Shown piece by piece: positions 5,915 through 29,185 of a stretch of 64,000 nt of DNA (positions within the stretch are counted from its first letter, which is position 1; each line of letters opens with the position of its first letter). The notes under the pieces are model-generated. The model saw only the letters and a program-made list of their open reading frames with translations, had not been told where the DNA came from and made no database searches. The stretch lies in contig JAUWYX010000001.1 of assembly GCA_030615625.1 (NCBI GenBank), forward strand, positions 62,001 through 126,000. The letters are read 5' to 3'. Both the position numbers and the translations under genes were made by a program. This DNA is from Dehalococcoidia bacterium. GTDB lineage: Bacteria > Chloroflexota > Dehalococcoidia > GIF9 > AB-539-J10.

Positions 5915-8900
5915 CTATGGATCTGATTGTTCGCTGGATGCATCTTGACCTATCTTCACTCTCTCAGAAAGACTGGCCTCGATAATGCCAATGAAGACCT
6001 CCACCAACTTAGGGTCAAACTGAAGCCCGGCACCTTGCCTGAGTTCTTTTACCACCTGCTCAAGGGACAATGCAGGACGGTAAGGACGGACAGAAGTCAT
6101 AGCCTCAAAGCTATCAACTATGGCGAGGATGCGAGCTTCTATGGGAATCTCTTCGCCTTTCAGCCCTTCAGGATAGCCACCGCCATCCCACCTCTCATGG
6201 TGATGTAAAATGCTATTTACATAGGGAACTAGATGGGGCATGGTACCGACGATATTTGCCCCTAGCCTGGGATGAGCCTTAATCGCTTCCCAATCCTCTC
6301 CACTAAGCTTCCCTTTTTTGTTAAGCACTTTATCGGGAATGCCAATTTTGCCAATGTCGTGAAGCAAAGCAGCAGTGCTCACCTTAGATACCTCATCCGG
6401 CGATAGTCCAATCGCTCCCGCTAAAGCCACGGCATAAGTGTTAACTTTCTTGGAATGACCAGAAGTATAGGAATCTTTAGCCTCCACTGCCGAGACTAAG
6501 GCATAAATAACACTCAGACTATCACTTCTGGTATCAATCCCAGTAATTCCTCCATTGTCCGGCGGCTTAGGCAAAATCTTGGAGGAAAGGTAGATTCGAT
6601 TACCTCCAGTCCGCTTGGCATAATAAAGAGCATTATCAGCCACGGCAACAAGTTCATCAGCTACCACTCCATCTGCAGGATAGTTAGCCAAACCAATGCT
6701 GCAAGTCACAGCAATTGCCTTCTTCTCCATCTCCTCGGCAATCTGCCCTCGAACTCGCTCAGCTACGACATAGGCATCACCCCTAGCTGTCTGGGGCAAA
6801 ATGACAACAAATTCATCGCCGCCATAGCGAAAAGCCTGGTCAACATTCCTGACAGAGCCTTTGATAATTTTCCCTATCTGGCTCAGAAGAATGTCCCCGG
6901 CGGGATGCCCATATGCATCGTTATAAGTCTTAAAGGTATCCAGGTCAAGCATGAATATGGAGAACAAATCGCCATAACGAGAATGCCGGGAAACCTCCTC
7001 TTTGAGTTGTTCTTCAAAATGACGTCGATTAAATAGCCCGGTAAGCACATCAATACGAGCCCTTTGTTCCAATTGGGCATAAAGTTGAGCATTCTCAACG
7101 GGCGCAGCAATCTGCAAAGCCACCTTTTCCAGAAGTTGTATTTGCCTGCGGTTGTAAGCATTAGGTTTGCGACTGGCCAAAATCAGGCTGCCAATAATAC
7201 GGTCTGTGACACTCAAGGGCAGGTAAGCAATAGAACAAATCCCTTGCTTCAAGTGACTCTCCCATGTCCAGAATCTGTGGTGTCGTTTCAGATCAGGTTC
7301 ATATACGGCCTGCTTCTCCCGGCATGCCAACTCCGTAGCCGTCCCTTCAAGCGGTATCCTTTCCTCCGGTTGCCAAGTAGAACCTATTGTGCTGGATAGA
7401 GCTAGAAAATAAAGCTCGTTTCCATCAATTAAAGCAATTGTTGCCCAATCAATATCCACCACTTTCTTTAGTTCCTGGGCGAAACCTTCAAATATCATCT
7501 GAATGCTCATGCTGGAGGTTATGATTGCGGTTAAACGATTAACTAGGGTTGTTTCTTCGTCTTGTTCCTTCAATTGCTCATGGGAATACTCCTTTTCCAT
7601 GCTCGCTGCCACTTTGGTGGCGATAAACTCCAATAAATCAATATCCTCAACGGCGTAAAACTTCCCATCTCGCCTAGCACTTATTGCCAGAACAGCCACA
7701 AGCTCCCCCCGGTTCATTAAAGGAACGAACATCTCTACTCCTGCCAATTGGATTTCTTCTCTCTCCTCCTGCCATATAGATTGTAATTCAGGAAAGATAG
7801 CGAGTTTCCTTTCCGGTAATATGGTGCTTTCGTGCTCCAGCCAGGTCACAATAGGACTATCCTGCCTTAATTTCAACTCCCCCATAGGATTATCCTCCAC
7901 AGGAGGGTAGATAAATTGGGCGCTAAAATCTCCATTTCCAGCCTCGGGCAAAAGCAGACAAGCTCTCCGACAGTCAATGGACTGAGCAAGCAGTGATATG
8001 AATTCGCTGCCCAACTGCTCCAGTGTGAGAACATCGTGTATTCTGGCGATAAAGTCAGATAACTGCCTGCGATAGGAGTATCTTGCGCCGATAAAGGCTT
8101 CCTCCACCTTTCTTTGCCAAAGGTCATGCACCTTGTGAACAAGAAACAGGATAGCTGGAATTCCCAGACCAATGGTTACCGCTAAAGAGGCAAAGTTAAG
8201 CTCAATGCCGACGAACCGGTGAGCGAGAGTGAAAAGCAGTAATACAATGCCAACACTACCGCCATAGAGGACTACGTATATAAGGGCTTGGCGGAATACA
8301 ACCCTGATATCCAGCAGACGGTAGGTCACAACAGCATAGGTTAAGACACAGGCAATCATAAGGTTGCCAATATGGCTCACAGGAAATTCGCCTCCACGGG
8401 GACCAATAGCGCTGAGAATGAACACCGTGAAGATAGCAATACCAGCAAATAAATAAACAATCTGATTACGCTCCGATGGGTTGGGTGAGAGCTTGTACTT
8501 TTGTATCAAGGAATATATATCCCTGGCGCCTACTGTGGAAAGAAAAAGTAAACCTATGGCAATGAGCCAGGGACCATAGTCAACATTGATGCCGCTGGCA
8601 GTGATTCCAACATTCCGGGGTATGTAGCCCAATGCCGCCAGGACAATGGTGGCTACCAGGAAAAGATAAGCCAATGGTATTTTGATGCGCTCGGACTGAT
8701 AAAAAGAACGTACAAAGTAATGGAATTGGACCAGCATCAAGATAGCAATACAAAGGACAATTTTAACTTCGAGTGGTTTATTGTGTATTAACAAGTCGCT
8801 CATACTAAGGAAGGTGCTGAAGCTCCAGAGTACGGCAGGAATGAGAAACAAAAGGAAAAGCTTATGCCTTTGTTGCCGTGGCCGAGTAGATAGCAAAATG

Positions 8901-8959
8901 ACAAATAAGGGGATATAAGCAATCGTAGCAATTAAGGGAATTAAAACATTGGCATTCAT
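5915..8959 (-). CDS. Multi-TM sensor with GAF-like domains, GGDEF diguanylate cyclase and HD-GYP phosphodiesterase
   Basis: N-terminal TM segments; RNVDQAFRYGGDEF (RxxD I-site plus GGDEF); HDIGKIGIP and HHERWDGGGYPEGLKG. Confidence 0.9.
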   Translation of the reverse strand: MNANVLIPLIATIAYIPLFVILLSTRPRQQRHKLFLLFLIPAVLWSFSTFLSMSDLLIHNKPLEVKIVLCIAILMLVQFHYFVRSFYQSERIKIPLAYLFLVATIVLAALGYIPRNVGITASGINVDYGPWLIAIGLLFLSTVGARDIYSLIQKYKLSPNPSERNQIVYLFAGIAIFTVFILSAIGPRGGEFPVSHIGNLMIACVLTYAVVTYRLLDIRVVFRQALIYVVLYGGSVGIVLLLFTLAHRFVGIELNFASLAVTIGLGIPAILFLVHKVHDLWQRKVEEAFIGARYSYRRQLSDFIARIHDVLTLEQLGSEFISLLAQSIDCRRACLLLPEAGNGDFSAQFIYPPVEDNPMGELKLRQDSPIVTWLEHESTILPERKLAIFPELQSIWQEEREEIQLAGVEMFVPLMNRGELVAVLAISARRDGKFYAVEDIDLLEFIATKVAASMEKEYSHEQLKEQDEETTLVNRLTAIITSSMSIQMIFEGFAQELKKVVDIDWATIALIDGNELYFLALSSTIGSTWQPEERIPLEGTATELACREKQAVYEPDLKRHHRFWTWESHLKQGICSIAYLPLSVTDRIIGSLILASRKPNAYNRRQIQLLEKVALQIAAPVENAQLYAQLEQRARIDVLTGLFNRRHFEEQLKEEVSRHSRYGDLFSIFMLDLDTFKTYNDAYGHPAGDILLSQIGKIIKGSVRNVDQAFRYGGDEFVVILPQTARGDAYVVAERVRGQIAEEMEKKAIAVTCSIGLANYPADGVVADELVAVADNALYYAKRTGGNRIYLSSKILPKPPDNGGITGIDTRSDSLSVIYALVSAVEAKDSYTSGHSKKVNTYAVALAGAIGLSPDEVSKVSTAALLHDIGKIGIPDKVLNKKGKLSGEDWEAIKAHPRLGANIVGTMPHLVPYVNSILHHHERWDGGGYPEGLKGEEIPIEARILAIVDSFEAMTSVRPYRPALSLEQVVKELRQGAGLQFDPKLVEVFIGIIEASLSERVKIGQDASSEQSDP

Positions 8960-11994: not shown

Positions 11995-12699
11995 ATGAAT
12001 AAGATCAAAGTGATGGTAATTGATGAGCAAGCATTTTTCAGAGCCGGGGTGCGTCAGACGCTGTCTCAACAAGCTGACCTGGAGATATTAGAATGCGACC
12101 CAACTCAGAATGCACTCGAGCTAATTGAAGCTAATCTCCCTGATGTTGCTCTACTTGGCTCTGACCTGGCCAGCCTCAGCGGAATTGAGCTGGGTAGAAA
12201 AATTGCTCAATACTACCCAAATACTAAAGTAATAGTGCTAAGCCCTGACCCTAATGATGAAGAGCTTTTTGAAGTCATTAAAACTGCAGCCGTAGCCTGC
12301 TTGAGTAAGAGCGCCACTGCCGACGAGCTGGTTAGCACTATAAGACGAGCCCGCAAAGGTGAATACCCCATAAATGAAAGCCTGATGACCAGACCCAGGG
12401 TTGCCAGGCAGGTATTAAACCAGTTTCGAGGTATGGGGAGAACTATGGAAGGCATAGCCGCTCCTGTTACCAACAGGGAAACGCAGATTCTAACCTACAT
12501 TGCTGAGGGCAACTCAAATAAAGAAATCGCCCGTATCCTAGAAATCAGCGAACAAACAATTAAGAATCATGTCAGTGCCATCCTTCGTAAGCTAAATGCT
12601 AATGATAGAGCCCACGCTGTTGCTCTCGCCCTGCACAGCGGCTGGATTTCACCCGAAGCAAAACCACGGAGGGTATTAGAAGATTTTGATGAAATTTGA
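11995..12699 (+). CDS. NarL/LuxR-family response regulator
   Basis: Receiver-like N-terminus and C-terminal TNRETQILTYIAEGNSNKEIARILEISEQTIKNHVSAILRKLNANDRAHAV. Confidence 0.9.
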   Translation: MNKIKVMVIDEQAFFRAGVRQTLSQQADLEILECDPTQNALELIEANLPDVALLGSDLASLSGIELGRKIAQYYPNTKVIVLSPDPNDEELFEVIKTAAVACLSKSATADELVSTIRRARKGEYPINESLMTRPRVARQVLNQFRGMGRTMEGIAAPVTNRETQILTYIAEGNSNKEIARILEISEQTIKNHVSAILRKLNANDRAHAVALALHSGWISPEAKPRRVLEDFDEI

Positions 12700-13131: not shown

Positions 13132-15501
13132 ATGGTTAACAATGTTGACTTCAGCCAATTGGCGAATTACACTTTACCCAAATTGGAGAAAGTGGATGGG
13201 AAGGTGCGTTATATGAAAATTGATTCGGAGCTGAAGGCCCAGATTAGAGGGTATCTGGAGCAGCAGGGGTATGAAGTAACCGAGAGAGCTAAGCTCCTCG
13301 GGAACTCAGGGATTGAGCATACCTTTGATATGCTGGCTCAAAGAGACGATGGTTTTACTAGATACAATATTGCTATCGGCATTGCTGCTGGTGGTGATAG
13401 GGATATAGAAGTGGGCACCATTTTCAGCTTTGCCAATAAAGCCTATGATTGCGGCATCCTTGACAGGATTCTTATTGCCATTCCTGAACTTAGTCAGGAG
13501 ACGAAACAGCTGGCTCGCAAGCAGCGAATAAAGGTTATTGCTGGAGAACAAATTGAGCAACTATTAACCCTGAAACCCGCGCAGCCAGTTAAGCCCGAGG
13601 AGCCGGTTAGGTTTGAGACAAAGGAGGACCTGGTCAAATCTTTAGCCAACCGGGGCTATGGAGTAAAAGAGAATGCCAAAATTAAAGGCCGGTCAGGAGT
13701 TGAATATACCTTTGATATACTGGCCCATGCTGAAAGCGGTCAGGTTGAGCACAAGCTGGCTATAGATTTCCTGAATGGGGAGAAAGAAGTAAACCTGGAA
13801 CAGGTAATGTTATTTGATACTAAGGCCTATGAGGCTGGCGTTGATGAGAAGATCATTGTGGTATCGGTGGAGCTTAGCCCCGAGGCACAGCAATTTGCCC
13901 AGCACCAGCAGATAAAAGTCCTTGGGTTGGGTCAAAAACTAGTTACTAAACCTGTGACTGAAGAGATAACTGTCCAGCCAAAAGGGAAGTCAACTAAATT
14001 AGATAAGCTGAAGAGCAAGCTACTGAGGCAGATGCCCCAGCCTGAGGCACTACAATTGATTCCTGAGGTGATGGCCAGAAGGTATAATGCCATACCCCTG
14101 ACTATATCTGGCAGGACACTGGAAGTGGCTATAGCAGACCCGACTGATATCTTTGCCCTGGAGGCTCTTTCATCCCAGAGCCGAATGAATGTTAAGCCTG
14201 TAGCTGCCACTGTCCAGGAAATCAGGGACGCTATTGACTTCAATTATAAAGCCTATGGCGAAATTGAAAAGCAGATTTCTCGTGTCTCTATCCCGGCTGA
14301 AGAAACTGACGAGAAGCTTGCCCTTAGTGCTGCTACTGATACCCCTCTGGTTCAGGCTCTCAATCTTATAATTGACGAGGCAGTCAAAGCCCGCGCATCT
14401 GACATTCATATTGAGCCAGAAGAAGATAGATTGCGAATACGCTACCGTATAGATGGCACTCTTCACGATACGATGTCTACACCTTTAAGTGTACACCGGG
14501 CACTCATTTCACGAATTAAAATCCTGGCTGAAATGAATATCGCTGACCATTTTCGTCCTCAAGATGGTCAATTCTCTACCGTGGCTAAAGGGCGAGAGAT
14601 AGATGTCAGAGTCGCTACCGCTCCCACTGTCTCAGGTGAGACAGCAACCCTGCGGCTTCTGGATAAGTCACTGGCTACTCTGGGGTTAGCAGAGCTTGGT
14701 CTGCTACCTGACAGCCTGGCAAAGTATGAAAGTATGCTCAAGGTTCCCTATGGTATGATTCTGATTAGCGGTCCTACCGGAGCTGGCAAAACTACTACTC
14801 TATATGCCTCAATCAATTCCCTTGATACTCACGGGAGAAACATCATTACTATTGAAGACCCTGCTGAGTACCGATTTAAGGATATTAACCAGATTCAGGT
14901 TAACCCCCAGGCTGGCATTACCTTTGCCAGCGGCTTGAGGTCCATACTTCGTCTTGACCCTGATGTAATACTGGTTGGTGAGATACGCGATGTCGAGACA
15001 GCTAACATAGCTACTCAGGCAGCCTTAACCGGGCACCTGATGCTGTCTTCTATCCACGCTAATGATGTTGCCGGTGTGCTCTCCCGTCTCCTTGACCTGA
15101 AGGTAGAGCCGTTCTTGATAGTCTCGGCAGTTATTGGTGTTGTCGCTCAGCGGATGGTGCGTCGCATCTGCTCTGATTGTAGCCGCCTTATTGAGGCCCC
15201 CCTGGTCGAACAGATGGCTTATGAAAAGGAAATGGGGGAGAAGCAGACCGAGTTCCTCTACGGTACCGGCTGTAAGTCCTGCGCCTATACCGGTTACCTG
15301 GGGCGGACGGGAATGTTTGAGATTCTACCTATGAGCGACACTATAGGAGTGATGGTCTGTAATCAAGCCAGCAGTAGTGCTGTCCGAGAGCGGGCCATTC
15401 AAGACGGTATGATATCTATGATGAACGATGGTATGCGTAAGGTAAAGGAAGGTATTACCACCCCCTCTGAGGTGCTGCGTAATGCCTACATTACAACTTA
15501 G
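13132..15501 (+). CDS. pilB: PilB/GspE-type T4P assembly ATPase with an extra N-terminal tandem degenerate nuclease-like domain
   Basis: Walker A SGPTGAGKTTTLYAS, EDPAEYR, LRLDPDVILVGEIRDVETA, MshEN-like domain; residues 1-270 hold two ~110-aa repeats. Confidence 0.92.
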   Translation: MVNNVDFSQLANYTLPKLEKVDGKVRYMKIDSELKAQIRGYLEQQGYEVTERAKLLGNSGIEHTFDMLAQRDDGFTRYNIAIGIAAGGDRDIEVGTIFSFANKAYDCGILDRILIAIPELSQETKQLARKQRIKVIAGEQIEQLLTLKPAQPVKPEEPVRFETKEDLVKSLANRGYGVKENAKIKGRSGVEYTFDILAHAESGQVEHKLAIDFLNGEKEVNLEQVMLFDTKAYEAGVDEKIIVVSVELSPEAQQFAQHQQIKVLGLGQKLVTKPVTEEITVQPKGKSTKLDKLKSKLLRQMPQPEALQLIPEVMARRYNAIPLTISGRTLEVAIADPTDIFALEALSSQSRMNVKPVAATVQEIRDAIDFNYKAYGEIEKQISRVSIPAEETDEKLALSAATDTPLVQALNLIIDEAVKARASDIHIEPEEDRLRIRYRIDGTLHDTMSTPLSVHRALISRIKILAEMNIADHFRPQDGQFSTVAKGREIDVRVATAPTVSGETATLRLLDKSLATLGLAELGLLPDSLAKYESMLKVPYGMILISGPTGAGKTTTLYASINSLDTHGRNIITIEDPAEYRFKDINQIQVNPQAGITFASGLRSILRLDPDVILVGEIRDVETANIATQAALTGHLMLSSIHANDVAGVLSRLLDLKVEPFLIVSAVIGVVAQRMVRRICSDCSRLIEAPLVEQMAYEKEMGEKQTEFLYGTGCKSCAYTGYLGRTGMFEILPMSDTIGVMVCNQASSSAVRERAIQDGMISMMNDGMRKVKEGITTPSEVLRNAYITT

Positions 15502-15518: not shown

Positions 15519-16730
15519 ATGGATTTCGCTTATACAGCCTATACTGAAGATAAGAAATTAGTTCAGGGCAAGGTTTCGGCTATCAGTGAAGAGGCGGCAA
15601 CCGAGCTGCTGGGCTATGGCGGCTACCGGGTAGTCACCCTTAAGAAAGTCGTTCCATTATTTAATAAAGAAAAACTGCTAGCCAGCTTTTCTCGTATAAA
15701 GCCGCAAGAAGTAATCATGTTTTCCCGCCAGCTAGCGCTACTCTTGGAATCCGGCACCGATATCGTTACTTCTTTAGATTTGTTGCAAGACCAGATAACT
15801 AGTCAAACCCTGCGGAAAATAGTTGGTGGGGTAGCCTCGGATATTCGCGGTGGTAGTTCACTGTCAATGGCTCTGGACAAGCACCCTCAGGCTTTCTCTA
15901 CAATGTACTCCCAGGCAATAGCTGCCGGTGAGCAAGGCGGTAACCTGGAGGTGGTGCTGAGGCAAATGGCCGACTATATGGAGAGGGGAGCCGTCACCCA
16001 GAAGAGAATAAAAGGTGCCTTGACCTACCCCATTATCGTGGTTGTTGTCGCTATTGTCGTGGTACTGGTATTGGTCACCCTTGTTTTTCCCACCTTTGTC
16101 AGCTTTTATTCTCAACTCGGGGCTGAGATGCCTCTGCCTGCCAAAATTCTTATGGGCCTTACTAATTGGCTTAACCACTATGGGCTTTATCTTCTGCTCG
16201 TGTTTTTAATTGCTGCTGCCGCACTTTATGTCTATATCAGGACCCCGGCCGGGAGATACCGTTGGGATAAAATGATGCTTGGTTTGCCTGTAGTCGGGCG
16301 TATTGTCCACCTCAGTGAGCTTTCCCGTTGCTGCCGGACTATGTCATTGTTAATCAGAGTCGGTTTACCCCTACCGGAAGTCCTGGCCGTAACCATCCGC
16401 AGTATTACCAATAAGGCCATAAATCAGGGTTTGATCGAAGTTCAGCAGGCGTTAATCAGAGGCGAAGGCTTGTCCCAACCCATGGCTAAGAATGAGTTCT
16501 TCCTGTCCTTAATGACGCAAATGGTGAGAGTTGGCGAAGAAACCGGTAATCTCGAGAATACGCTAGGTACTGTAGCCGAAAGCTTTGAGGCCGAGGCTGA
16601 TGATAAGACCAACTCGGCTGTGGGGCTTATTCAGCCAGTGATAACGATAATTCTGGGTTTGGTGGTTGCTTTTGTTGTTTTAGCTATGTTTTCAGCCCTG
16701 TATTCTGTCTATAATCAGCTAAATATCTAG
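15519..16730 (+). CDS. pilC: PilC/GspF-type T4P inner-membrane platform protein
   Basis: FSRQLALLLESGTDIVTSLDLL, two GspF-like halves, TM segments, downstream of pilB. Confidence 0.92.
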   Translation: MDFAYTAYTEDKKLVQGKVSAISEEAATELLGYGGYRVVTLKKVVPLFNKEKLLASFSRIKPQEVIMFSRQLALLLESGTDIVTSLDLLQDQITSQTLRKIVGGVASDIRGGSSLSMALDKHPQAFSTMYSQAIAAGEQGGNLEVVLRQMADYMERGAVTQKRIKGALTYPIIVVVVAIVVVLVLVTLVFPTFVSFYSQLGAEMPLPAKILMGLTNWLNHYGLYLLLVFLIAAAALYVYIRTPAGRYRWDKMMLGLPVVGRIVHLSELSRCCRTMSLLIRVGLPLPEVLAVTIRSITNKAINQGLIEVQQALIRGEGLSQPMAKNEFFLSLMTQMVRVGEETGNLENTLGTVAESFEAEADDKTNSAVGLIQPVITIILGLVVAFVVLAMFSALYSVYNQLNI

Positions 16731-22417: not shown

Positions 22418-23842
22418 ATGGCGAAAAGAGTTACCACGTTATTTATCAGGGATAATAGCATTAACCTGCTGGTCATGAAGGGCGAAAAGGTGGAAAAGTG
22501 GGCTAGCTTACCACTGGAGCCAGGTCTGGTTAGCCAGGGGCTCATTGTTGACGAAGAGCAGGTAGCCGACAAGGTTAAGCAGGTATTTAAAGAGACAGGA
22601 GCAAAGGCAGGCAAGGTCATCAGCGCTTTAAGCGGGCATGATTCTCTGTATCGCGTCATATCCCTGCCCGAGCTGCCTGAAGCTGTAATTCCTGAGGCGG
22701 TGAGGCGTGAGGCACAGAGAACGATACCAACACCTTTAGAAGAGGTTTACTTTTCATACCAGAGCCTTCCTTCTCCGAGGGGAGAAAGTCGTGTTTTCCT
22801 GACCACCTTCCCCCGCAACGTGGTTGACGTTATGGTCAGAACGCTGCGCCAGGCCGGTGTTAAGCCACATATTATGGACTTAGCTCCCCTGGCCTTGTGC
22901 CGAATCCCGGATGAGCCCCGAGCAATCATTGTAAATGCCCGGTTAGACCACCTTGATCTCATAGTTCTGGCAGACAGGCTCCCTCAGGTCATCCGCAGGT
23001 TATCCCTGCCCACTGAGACTGAATCCTTAGAGGAAAAGCTGCCGTTTATCGCTGAAGAGTTCAACAGGACTGTTGCCTTCTATAATTCCAGCCATATGGA
23101 AAAGCCTTTAGATTCTACTGTGCCCGTGTTTGTCTGCGGCGACCTGGCAGAAGAACCGGATACCTGGCAGTCAGTGGTTGGCGGGGCAGGCTATTCGGTG
23201 TCAGCGTTGCCATCGCCTGTGGAACCCGCCGAGGGCTTCAACCCCAACGAATTCATGGTCAATATCGGGCTGGCTCTCAAGGAACTGCTGCCGGAAAAGG
23301 AAGAAGCTAACTTTTCATTAGTGAATTTTAATGCCCTCCCTGAAGCCTATGTGCCCCCGCGTTTCTCTATGGTACGAGTACTGATCCCCGTTGTTACTGT
23401 CATCGGTATCGGCCTGATTATCCTCGCCGTAATTCTTATCCTGTATAATCGCACCGAGATTGCGACATTGCGTTCCGAGGTGACAATTGCTGAGACCAGC
23501 GTTATCCAGCTGCAGCTGGACACAGCGACATTGAAAGCACAGGTTGGGTCGGCAAAAACTATCGCCGATGCCCTTAATGCCAGATTTATCACCATGGAAC
23601 GGGGGCGGGCGAGCGTTTATCTGGATTTACGCGAGATTGTAGACTTAGCGAACCAGAATGTGTTCTTCGTCCAAGTTGAGCATAAGGGCAGCTCAATAAT
23701 TGTGAAGGGGGCGGCTCCAAATGTGGGACTCATTTACAGTTATGCCCGAGATTTGAGGGAGAGCCCCAGATTCTCGAGAGTTTGGGTCGCGCGTGTCCAG
23801 GAGGACGGCCCGTGGAGTTTTGAGTTCTCCTTAACCAAATAA
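22418..23842 (+). CDS. PilM-PilN fusion-type T4P assembly protein
   Basis: PilM-like VISLPELPEAVIPEAVRREAQRTIPTPLEEVYFSY; C-terminal TM plus PilN-like coiled coil. Confidence 0.75.
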   Translation: MAKRVTTLFIRDNSINLLVMKGEKVEKWASLPLEPGLVSQGLIVDEEQVADKVKQVFKETGAKAGKVISALSGHDSLYRVISLPELPEAVIPEAVRREAQRTIPTPLEEVYFSYQSLPSPRGESRVFLTTFPRNVVDVMVRTLRQAGVKPHIMDLAPLALCRIPDEPRAIIVNARLDHLDLIVLADRLPQVIRRLSLPTETESLEEKLPFIAEEFNRTVAFYNSSHMEKPLDSTVPVFVCGDLAEEPDTWQSVVGGAGYSVSALPSPVEPAEGFNPNEFMVNIGLALKELLPEKEEANFSLVNFNALPEAYVPPRFSMVRVLIPVVTVIGIGLIILAVILILYNRTEIATLRSEVTIAETSVIQLQLDTATLKAQVGSAKTIADALNARFITMERGRASVYLDLREIVDLANQNVFFVQVEHKGSSIIVKGAAPNVGLIYSYARDLRESPRFSRVWVARVQEDGPWSFEFSLTK

Positions 23843-24543: not shown

Positions 24544-25617
24544 ATGGATGTTTTTTCATTGCTTCGGACAGGTAAGTCAAGACGGGCTAGCGATTTACAT
24601 ATGGTTGTTGGCAGCCCGGCAACGTTCCGCATCGACGGCTCCCTGGAACCAGCAGACGGTGTAGCTCCACTAACTCCTGAGGATGTAAACGAAGCTTTTC
24701 TCCAGCTAACCACGCCTGAGGAGAGGGAACACTTCCACCGCCAACTGGAGCTTGATTTTGGCTATACGTTACCTGATGTCGGTCGTCTGCGATGCAATGC
24801 CGCTCAGCAGCGCGGGTCTATCAGCCTTGCTCTGCGCCTGTTGCCACCAAAAATCCCCACCCTGGACGAGCTGGAGCTGCCTGCGATATGTAAGGAGCTT
24901 GCCATGAAGCCCAGAGGACTGGTAGTGATTACGGGACCTACCGGCAGTGGTAAAAGTACCACCATGGCAGCTATGATTCAACACTTGAATACTCATGAAA
25001 CCCGCCATGTAGTTACCATTGAAGACCCCATAGAATATGTTCACACCAGCATTAAATGTGCTGTGACCCAGCGTCAGTTGGGCACTGATACCTTATCCTT
25101 TGACAATGCTCTGAAACACATCTTAAGGCAGGACCCGGATGTGATTCTGGTCGGCGAGATGAGAGATCCGGAGACTGCCGACGCTGTCCTTACCGTAGCT
25201 GAGACAGGGCACTTTATATTAACTACCGGTCATGCCCCCAGCGCTACTCAGGCAATAGAGAGAATAATTGATTTGTTCCCACCTCATCAGCGCCACCTGG
25301 CCCAGACACGGCTGGCTTCTTTACTTATTGGTGCGCTATGTCAGGTGCTTGTGCCCCGGGCTGATGGTTCAGGGAGGGTAGCCGCCGTAGAAGTCATGCT
25401 CGGCAATCCGGCAGTGAAAAACCTCATTCGGGAAGGCAAAATCTACCAGTTACCCAATGTAATCCGTACCCACCGGGACATGGGCATGATTTCGCTTGAC
25501 GAAGCCCTGGTCGAGATCTACCTCAAGGGAATCATCACTGGCAAAATCGTGCTCGATTTCTGCAATGACCGCCAGGAAGTGGAAAAGCTCGTTGGCAAGA
25601 TTATAGTAACCGCCTAA
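24544..25617 (+). CDS. pilT: PilT-type T4P retraction ATPase
   Basis: ITGPTGSGKSTTMAAMIQHLN, VTIEDPIEYVH, LRQDPDVILVGEMRDPETADAVLTVAETGH. Confidence 0.93.
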   Translation: MDVFSLLRTGKSRRASDLHMVVGSPATFRIDGSLEPADGVAPLTPEDVNEAFLQLTTPEEREHFHRQLELDFGYTLPDVGRLRCNAAQQRGSISLALRLLPPKIPTLDELELPAICKELAMKPRGLVVITGPTGSGKSTTMAAMIQHLNTHETRHVVTIEDPIEYVHTSIKCAVTQRQLGTDTLSFDNALKHILRQDPDVILVGEMRDPETADAVLTVAETGHFILTTGHAPSATQAIERIIDLFPPHQRHLAQTRLASLLIGALCQVLVPRADGSGRVAAVEVMLGNPAVKNLIREGKIYQLPNVIRTHRDMGMISLDEALVEIYLKGIITGKIVLDFCNDRQEVEKLVGKIIVTA

Positions 25618-26772: not shown

Positions 26773-27177
26773 TTATGGTGTTACGACTCTCTTCCACTTC
26801 CCGTGAAACCCAGTCGCGCCGGTCTCGTAGTCAGTAAATTCAATTAAGACGTTCCAAGTACTATTCGACGCTCCTACTAACCACCCAAAATCATCATCGA
26901 TGTCGTAGATAGCCCCCGGCGTTCCTGAGATGTAGTCGGGCACCAGGAGGCTTGAATCGGCGGGCCACTCACCATACTCACCAAAGTAGCCCAGCGACCC
27001 CGTTTTCACCTGCTCTGCCTCGGAGTTGGCTGCGGACAGTTCGCCGGTAATCATAAACCCAGAGATGTTGGGGATAACCACGGCGGCGATAATGCCCAGG
27101 ATGGCCACCACGATAAGCAGCTCAATCAGGGTGAATCCTTTCTCTCCACGGTGCGCTATTTTCATAAATCTTCCCAT
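26773..27177 (-). CDS. Type IV pilin (possible major pilin)
   Basis: HRGEKG/FTLIELLIVVAILGIIAAVVIPN class III leader. Confidence 0.92.
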   Translation of the reverse strand: MGRFMKIAHRGEKGFTLIELLIVVAILGIIAAVVIPNISGFMITGELSAANSEAEQVKTGSLGYFGEYGEWPADSSLLVPDYISGTPGAIYDIDDDFGWLVGASNSTWNVLIEFTDYETGATGFHGKWKRVVTP

Positions 27178-27384: not shown

Positions 27385-27800
27385 GGGGTGTCATTGCGAG
27401 CGAAGCGTGGCAATCCCCATCCTCACCAGCCCCACCACTGAGATTGCTTCGGCACTGTCGTGCCTCGCAACGACAGGGAGAGGTGTCACACCGAGATTGC
27501 TTCGACACTGTCGTGCCTCGCAATGACAAAGAAGGGGTGTCATTGCGAGCGAAGCGTGGCAATCCCCATTCTCACCAGCCCCACCACTGAGATTGCTTCG
27601 TCGCTATGCTCCTCGCAATGACAAAGGAAGAAGGTGCCTCGCAATGACAAAGGAAGAAGGTGCCTCGCAACGACAAAGAAGAGGTGTCATTGCCGCAAAG
27701 AAGCCCAAATGTCAAAATCCAAATGACAATTGAAATCCAAATACTTAAATGCTAAAACTACTCCGTTTTGTCATTGGGATTTGGTGCTTGGGATTCAGAG
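27385..27800. repeat. Repeat array: several palindromic GTCATTGCGAG copies and composite copy 3
   Basis: gtcattgcgagcgaagcgtggcaatccccat(c/t)ctcaccagccccaccactgagattgcttcg occurs twice; AT-rich element at ~27700-27800. Confidence 0.85.
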
Positions 27801-29185
27801 TTTCCCTCTCCAGATGGCTCTGACTCCAGTTGTTCAACCTCAAAGACCCTTATCCCCTGACGCTCAGCAAACTGCATGGCTTCCTTGGTGAGTCCAGGAA
27901 CAGCAATAAGGACCTTGTCCATAATACTTGCATCATAAGCCCTGTCGTCAAAGTCAAATACCCTATCCAGTTCCATCGGCTTCTTATCCACATCGATGCC
28001 GATAGCAATACGATGAGTAATGATGCCCTCTTCCTTGGTAGCCAGTATGTCTATGTTATGGGCAGCGCCAGACCGGCCTTTGACTTCAGCATTTTCCTTT
28101 ACTCTGTAGCCCTGTTTCCTCAGGTATTGTATGAGCTGTGATTTGGACTTAAATTCAAAAGGCTCCTTCACTATTTCCGGGCCTCGCTGGGGACCGCCAG
28201 TCAGCACTATTTCCAGGTCCTTGGGTTCAAGCACCTTTATCCTATGGTAGCTGGCAAATTTCGCCGCCTCTTCACCTAACGTGGGGATGATAATCAGTAC
28301 TTTATCGTGAATGCCGCTATCGAAGGCTTTGACATCAAAATCCAATATCCTGTCCAGTCCTATCTTATCCCTGGCAATCTCAACCCCGATAGCGACATTA
28401 TGGGTAACTACGCCGTCATCCCTGGTAGCCAGCATATCTATGCTATGTTCTGCCCCCGACCTTCCCTGCACCCTGGCGTTTTCCGTTACCTCGTAGCCGT
28501 GCCGCCTCAAGAATTCAAGGAACTGCACTTTAGGCTGAATTTCAAATTCCAGCCAGTTTCTCTTCGATTCATCAAGGGTATACGCGTAGATATTTACCTC
28601 GTCAATCGCATCCTCATTGGCAAGCGAGGAACATTTCAGGCAGCGCCACTTTAGCAACGGCACGTTAAATATCTCGCCGCAATCACGGCACTTGCGCAGC
28701 ACCCCCCGGCTATGGTAGTCGGTGCCCAGAGTTCGCAGCTCCAGTTTACACCTGGGGCATATATATTTACCCTTGGCCGCAAATTCGTCTTCAACTCCGA
28801 CATAACCGCAGGCCGAGTGCTCGAGGATTCTGCCCCGGACAATATCTCCTGAGCTGCATTTAGGGCAGTGAGTGCTTGGTCTTAAATTTATTGACTGGCA
28901 CCGGGAACAACGGAGGATCCTATCAAAGAAGCTCCTTTTCAATATCTCCTTATCAGTCAGGGATTCCACAATTGCTACTGCTTCCGTGCCTTTGACCTTT
29001 ACTGTTTGCTCAACGACTGGATAGATGAAGCCCAGTTCAGTGGTGAAATCAAGCTGGGGTTTAATATCAACAATCTTCGACTCCAGCATTGCCGCCACCA
29101 ATTTCAGCGCCCTCTCATCCTTCTCCATATCGCTTATGGCTTGGGGGGCTTCTGTTGCTTCTACCTCTTTATCGACTTCTTTCAT
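27758..29185 (-). CDS. TackOD1-type zinc-ribbon protein with two C-terminal degenerate nuclease-like domains
   Basis: RCSRCQSINLRPSTHCPKCSSGDIVRGRILEHSACGYVGVEDEF...ICPRCKLELRTLGTDYHSRGVLRKCRDCGEIFN, then two GYxVxENAxxxGRSGAxHxIDxLAT repeats. Confidence 0.75.
   Translation of the reverse strand: MKEVDKEVEATEAPQAISDMEKDERALKLVAAMLESKIVDIKPQLDFTTELGFIYPVVEQTVKVKGTEAVAIVESLTDKEILKRSFFDRILRCSRCQSINLRPSTHCPKCSSGDIVRGRILEHSACGYVGVEDEFAAKGKYICPRCKLELRTLGTDYHSRGVLRKCRDCGEIFNVPLLKWRCLKCSSLANEDAIDEVNIYAYTLDESKRNWLEFEIQPKVQFLEFLRRHGYEVTENARVQGRSGAEHSIDMLATRDDGVVTHNVAIGVEIARDKIGLDRILDFDVKAFDSGIHDKVLIIIPTLGEEAAKFASYHRIKVLEPKDLEIVLTGGPQRGPEIVKEPFEFKSKSQLIQYLRKQGYRVKENAEVKGRSGAAHNIDILATKEEGIITHRIAIGIDVDKKPMELDRVFDFDDRAYDASIMDKVLIAVPGLTKEAMQFAERQGIRVFEVEQLESEPSGEGNSESQAPNPNDKTE

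Follow-up and report, generated by a model that had tools for sequence, protein, structure and literature searches.

The stretch of DNA considered here (64,000 nucleotides from a Dehalococcoidia bacterium, hereafter the window) encodes a PilB/GspE-type pilus assembly ATPase, ahead of whose motor core stand two copies of a domain resembling restriction endonucleases (REase), and the question raised by this locus is what a nuclease fold does on a pilus motor. The open reading frame of 789 aa contains the T2SSE motor domain (Pfam, E 3e-124). Since it scores below the cut-offs of both the PilB equivalog model of NCBI (TIGR02538, 499 vs 675.65 bits) and the GspE equivalog model (510 vs 630 bits), it is filed here as a PilB/GspE-type ATPase and not as an equivalog, and is called PilB for brevity. 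Its parts are as follows:

13132–15501, plus strand: PilB/GspE-type pilus assembly ATPase, 789 aa (open reading frame, Pfam)
13216–13572, plus strand: REase-like repeat 1 (R1), residues ~29–147; D66 kept, E/Q site G83, Lys site A85 (Pfam, model, alignment)
13609–13929, plus strand: REase-like repeat 2 (R2), residues ~160–266; D195 and D212 kept, Lys site L214 (Pfam, model, alignment)
14017–14247, plus strand: C-terminal half of MshEN (ND1), residues ~296–372; no RLG c-di-GMP motif
14332–15480, plus strand: T2SSE motor core, residues 401–783 (Pfam)

The preliminary description of this DNA had placed tandem repeats of about 110 aa at the head of PilB, and they are confirmed at that place: R1 and R2, about 105 aa each, are identical at 38 of 103 positions, and their alignment score of 188 compares with a mean of 28 for shuffled sequences (SD 4.4; maximum 51 in 1000 shuffles). 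The first ~27 residues of the reading frame are doubtful, as residues 1–26 are of low pLDDT in the AlphaFold model and an in-frame TAG lies in three relatives within matches beginning at PilB residue 1–2, so that translation may in fact begin nearer M28. The order of domains proposed earlier, with the repeats preceding MshEN, is right, but of MshEN only a part was found: residues 293–372 match the C-terminal half of the MshE N-domain (Z 12.7, model), the half with the c-di-GMP motif (ND0) appears to be missing, and the RLGxx motif of MshEN_N is absent from the whole PilB protein. The tandem thus occupies the place held in other PilB/MshE motors by the c-di-GMP-binding ND0 (MshEN_N). Upstream of the pilus locus the minus strand encodes a large signalling protein (5915–8959), GGDEF- and HD-GYP-like as judged from its sequence, which is present although PilB is here without the c-di-GMP motif.

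A likeness of the repeats to Mrr/PD-(D/E)XK folds had been suspected, and it was borne out by both family and structure comparison. The Pfam family Mrr_cat (PF04471) matches both PilB repeats (40.6 bits for the pair vs a cut-off of 21), its scores ranging from 36.1 to 40.6 bits against the gathering score of 21. The family NA-iREase1 (PF22722), which likewise comprises an inactive REase fold used as an accessory domain and is named for NACHT proteins, matches the isolated pair at 28.3 bits (cut-off 27) and the whole PilB at 24.9 bits, which is below the cut-off. In the AlphaFold model of PilB, built from 22 relatives (pLDDT 74), both repeats have the REase order of elements, and structure comparison returned REase folds and not an ordinary MshEN duplication, the alternative that the preliminary description had itself named. 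The closest solved structure is AF1548 (1y88; Z 13.5 over 107 residues, rmsd 3.5), and the structural neighbours include the cyclic-oligoadenylate-dependent nucleases Cdn1/Can2, matched mainly in their nuclease part. In some of the structure matches the model ranges cross from R1 into R2, which could reflect either swapped strands or an artefact of the tandem repeat. A sequence-profile search of solved structures gave chance matches only.

For the active site, 82 repeats were aligned with 12 intact Mrr-type proteins from related genomes. The catalytic Lys, present in all 12 of the latter, is found in none of the repeats, for which reason the repeats, by this alignment, are related to nucleases but lack the Lys needed for catalysis, in agreement with the non-catalytic module assumed earlier. 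The E/Q position is lost in nearly all of them, being mostly Gly, with Asp in R2 of PilB (D212); the residues at the (E/Q)xK site of the window's protein are G83/A85 in R1 and D212/L214 in R2. The earlier remark that (D/E)xK is not apparent therefore stands as regards (E/Q)xK, lost in both repeats, but it needs to be supplemented, as about 76 of the 82 repeats retain the first active-site Asp (D66 and D195 in PilB). The tandem thus shares with Mrr-type restriction endonucleases (PF04471; AF1548, 1y88) the fold, the element order and the first active-site Asp, and differs from them in the lost (E/Q)xK and in being an accessory pair on a pilus motor or a regulator. The motifs GxSGxEHxFD and FDxKAYDxGI are strongly conserved in it, and the PilB copies are acidic (pI 4.6–6.4).

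The locus around pilB includes PilC-like, PilM, PilT-like and pilin genes:

11995–12699, plus strand: NarL/LuxR-type response regulator; several families with a fused pilB also keep it upstream of that gene
15519–16730, plus strand: PilC-like platform protein (by sequence and position), adjoining pilB in relatives too
22418–23842, plus strand: PilM (PF11104; family match)
24544–25617, plus strand: PilT-like ATPase (T2SSE; family match)
26773–27177, minus strand: pilin-like protein (N_methyl; family match), beside the TackOD1 gene described below

Between pilM and pilT lies a gene for a four-helix protein of the 23S rRNA intervening-sequence type (PF05635, 23950–24324). The order NarL-type regulator, pilB, pilC, pilins is kept in several families with fused PilB.

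The tandem was matched in 52 of 100 relatives and in 18 of 400 genomes spread over the phylum, all 18 belonging to the class of the window; the fusion of the tandem to PilB extends across Dehalococcoidia and is not a one-off. The matching genomes include complete single-contig ones of family f16, one of which we take to be Dehalococcoides mccartyi 195, so that this genus is probably among the Chloroflexota with the tandem on the pilus motor. A scan of named genomes, carried out with peptide patterns specific to close relatives and therefore uninformative on other phyla, returned only Chloroflexota/Dehalococcoidia records and two labelled as Deltaproteobacteria (L135, L138). In the latter two the regulator, PilB and PilC are 59–76% identical to those of the window and stand in the same order, in view of which mislabelled bins appear likelier than horizontal transfer.

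Within the genome under study, Mrr_cat matches only PilB and one further protein, encoded in the same window 14 kb from PilB, which carries a second copy of the tandem:

27758–29185, minus strand: TackOD1-(REase-like)2 protein, 475 aa
28574–29125, minus strand: its TackOD1 domain (PF18551; 142 bits vs a cut-off of 32)
28196–28546, minus strand: its REase-like repeat 1 (model, alignment)
27827–28144, minus strand: its REase-like repeat 2 (model, alignment)

Its AlphaFold model (pLDDT 80) has the REase order of elements in each repeat, and its tandem is also nearest to AF1548 (Z 14.2). Over the phylum, the TackOD1 family gave strong matches only in the order of the window, the rest being weak and under the cut-off. 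In the sections that deal with it in two papers (PMC5847659, PMC4858521), TackOD1 is described as a zinc-ribbon output domain whose function is obscure, and arCOG06883 is placed in thaumarchaeal pilus loci. The window's protein is likewise a TackOD1 protein in a pilus locus, and REC-TackOD1 forms exist as well; a C-terminal REase-like tandem is not mentioned in those sections, and here the domain is linked to a bacterial PilB by adjacency and by the shared tandem.

How the tandem came onto the motor is suggested by comparison of 42 genomes with a close PilB orthologue (down to E 8e-187). It is fused to PilB in 30 of them (one cut by the contig end), while in nine (G052, G053, G055, G057, G061, G062, G065, G068, G071) all of sister families, a TackOD1-(REase-like)2 gene lies directly upstream of a tandem-less pilB, in the same direction; the two arrangements thus stand in for each other among relatives. 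In G072 the tandem is not fused to PilB, both genes being at contig ends, and in the two remaining, incomplete genomes (G069, G076) there is neither a tandem nor a TackOD1 gene upstream of pilB, from which the tandem appears dispensable. Where the spacing was measured, an in-frame start of pilB follows the stop of the TackOD1 gene by 9–27 bases (7/7; one has an earlier, overlapping candidate start); the two genes share a reading frame in five of the seven, and in three of these five they are parted by the stop codon alone. In the tandem-less PilB orthologues, too, the ND1 half is preceded by no more than a short stretch. The pilB orthologues of L117 and L118 have no tandem or TackOD1 gene, and upstream of each stands a divergently transcribed gene whose N-terminus is similar.

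In a tree of 41 tandems, those of PilB form one clade (100/99). A branch supported at 97/95 separates this clade and the TackOD1 tandems whose genes adjoin pilB from the tandems of REC-TackOD1 and stand-alone TackOD1 proteins, among them that of 27758–29185 in the window. In a separate tree of single repeats, R2 of PilB groups with R2 of the adjacent-gene tandems (98), from which, together with the clade placement, it follows that the pair moved as a unit. Some lineages evolve fast, as seen from long branches in the tandem tree. The simplest history, as we infer it, would be fusion from an adjacent TackOD1 gene accompanied by loss of TackOD1, the direction of the fusion resting on a long outgroup branch.

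The tandem is not specific to pili, since REC-TackOD1 forms occur in nearly complete genomes having no close PilB match (G066, G081, G082). The longer proteins of this kind in family f2 are built of REC, a proline-rich linker, TackOD1 and (REase-like)2, and the REC-TackOD1 genes adjoin those for a GAF histidine kinase, an OmpR-type regulator and a GT2 glycosyltransferase/synthase, as well as for epimerase, UDP-sugar dehydrogenase and deacetylase-like proteins. One such cluster (L205:6352–13350) encodes a GAF histidine kinase, an OmpR-type regulator, REC-TackOD1-(REase-like)2, a GT2 synthase and an epimerase. By these gene surroundings, the tandem is the output part of regulators for at least two surface systems. 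Forms with more repeats are found too: L169 has a REC-TackOD1 protein with three repeats, followed after a few bases at most by the opening of a GT2 frame, and in L151:4953–8261 (a Chloroflexota MAG) a frame of 1103 aa in the PilB region contains four.

To the reading which, in our opinion, fits these data best we give an even chance: the tandem would be a non-catalytic docking or regulatory cassette of REase fold, which a gene fusion transferred to the motor from a TackOD1 regulator. In the ancestor, a TackOD1-(REase-like)2 regulator would have acted on the pilus motor from the adjacent gene, and a fusion in which TackOD1 was lost would have joined the regulator's output pair to the motor itself; there the pair might gate or position the PilB hexamer through partner binding. 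For the pair of the REC-TackOD1 paralogues the target would be an exopolysaccharide synthase, to which it would relay a phospho-signal. The candidate partner is another REase-like pair, such as that of the locus's own TackOD1 protein, or a platform protein; as no TackOD1 protein is seen in many of the genomes with a fused PilB, this protein cannot always be the partner. Binding of regulators in this part of the motor is known from Xanthomonas citri, where PilZ-FimX docks on the N-terminal ND0/ND1 region of PilB (PMC8389850). Counting against pure docking is the fact that R2 of PilB keeps two metal-site acids, which docking alone does not need.

The kept acids bear on another explanation, according to which the tandem binds nucleic acid without cutting it and so couples the motor either with the uptake of DNA or with the chromosome: this is suggested by the REase fold itself and by the first metal-site Asp retained in most repeats, but it seems improbable. 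The net acidic character of the PilB copies speaks against simple binding to DNA; ComEC, taken as a marker of DNA uptake, occurs in nearly all of these genomes and hence shows no correspondence with the tandem; and the same tandem terminates regulators in exopolysaccharide loci. That the motor bears an active nuclease or a defence effector, as the Mrr_cat matches taken by themselves might imply, is very unlikely, the Lys being missing from all 82 repeats and the E/Q from nearly all.

Rather unlikely, in our estimate, is a sensor that replaces the missing ND0 half and binds a small molecule, either a nucleotide or some second messenger. The position of the tandem in a PilB with no RLG motif left would accord with such a sensor, the two conserved motifs would suit a pocket, and Cdn1/Can2 are among the structural neighbours, though mainly through their nuclease part; yet the tandem-less PilB proteins also have a short stretch before ND1, so there was no one-for-one swap. 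If, finally, the tandem were a relic or spacer left without a specific role by a chance fusion, its dispensability in two orthologues and its fast evolution in some lineages would be readily understood, but one PilB clade keeps it across several families of the class with the invariant motifs retained, and the forms with three and four repeats (L169, L151) speak against mere decay as well; we hold such a relic to be quite improbable. Returning to the docking cassette, a wider reading of it is possible, though short of probable: the "dead nuclease pair" may be a portable output module linking two-component and TackOD1 signalling to the surface machines of Dehalococcoidia, and, equally tentatively, its forms would be those joined to PilB itself, those in a gene next to pilB, and those borne by response regulators beside exopolysaccharide synthases. 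Were this so, it would give the first functional handle on TackOD1, whose tie to the pilus motor in a class of bacteria, by adjacency and a common unusual module, makes its role testable. The PilB protein, moreover, is a case of a nuclease fold recruited as a non-catalytic motor part where other motors sense c-di-GMP.

The preliminary description did not recognise the architecture as a standard one for PilB, and no paper describing it was found in the open-access literature searched, where neither REase domains of pilus ATPases nor the pairing of TackOD1 with a REase tandem turned up; a machine listing of the REase-like plus PilB architecture may exist, because Pfam's own models already match both repeats. 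Two described motors come near to it. PilB of X. citri also has ND1, and its N-terminal region docks a regulator; the window's PilB has no ND0 and bears the REase pair instead. PilF of Thermus thermophilus, with three N-terminal GSPII domains, two of which bind c-di-GMP (PMC11731258), is likewise a secretion-type ATPase whose motor is preceded by accessory domains in several copies; in place of its GSPII/MshEN repeats, the protein studied here carries REase-like repeats and only half an MshEN.
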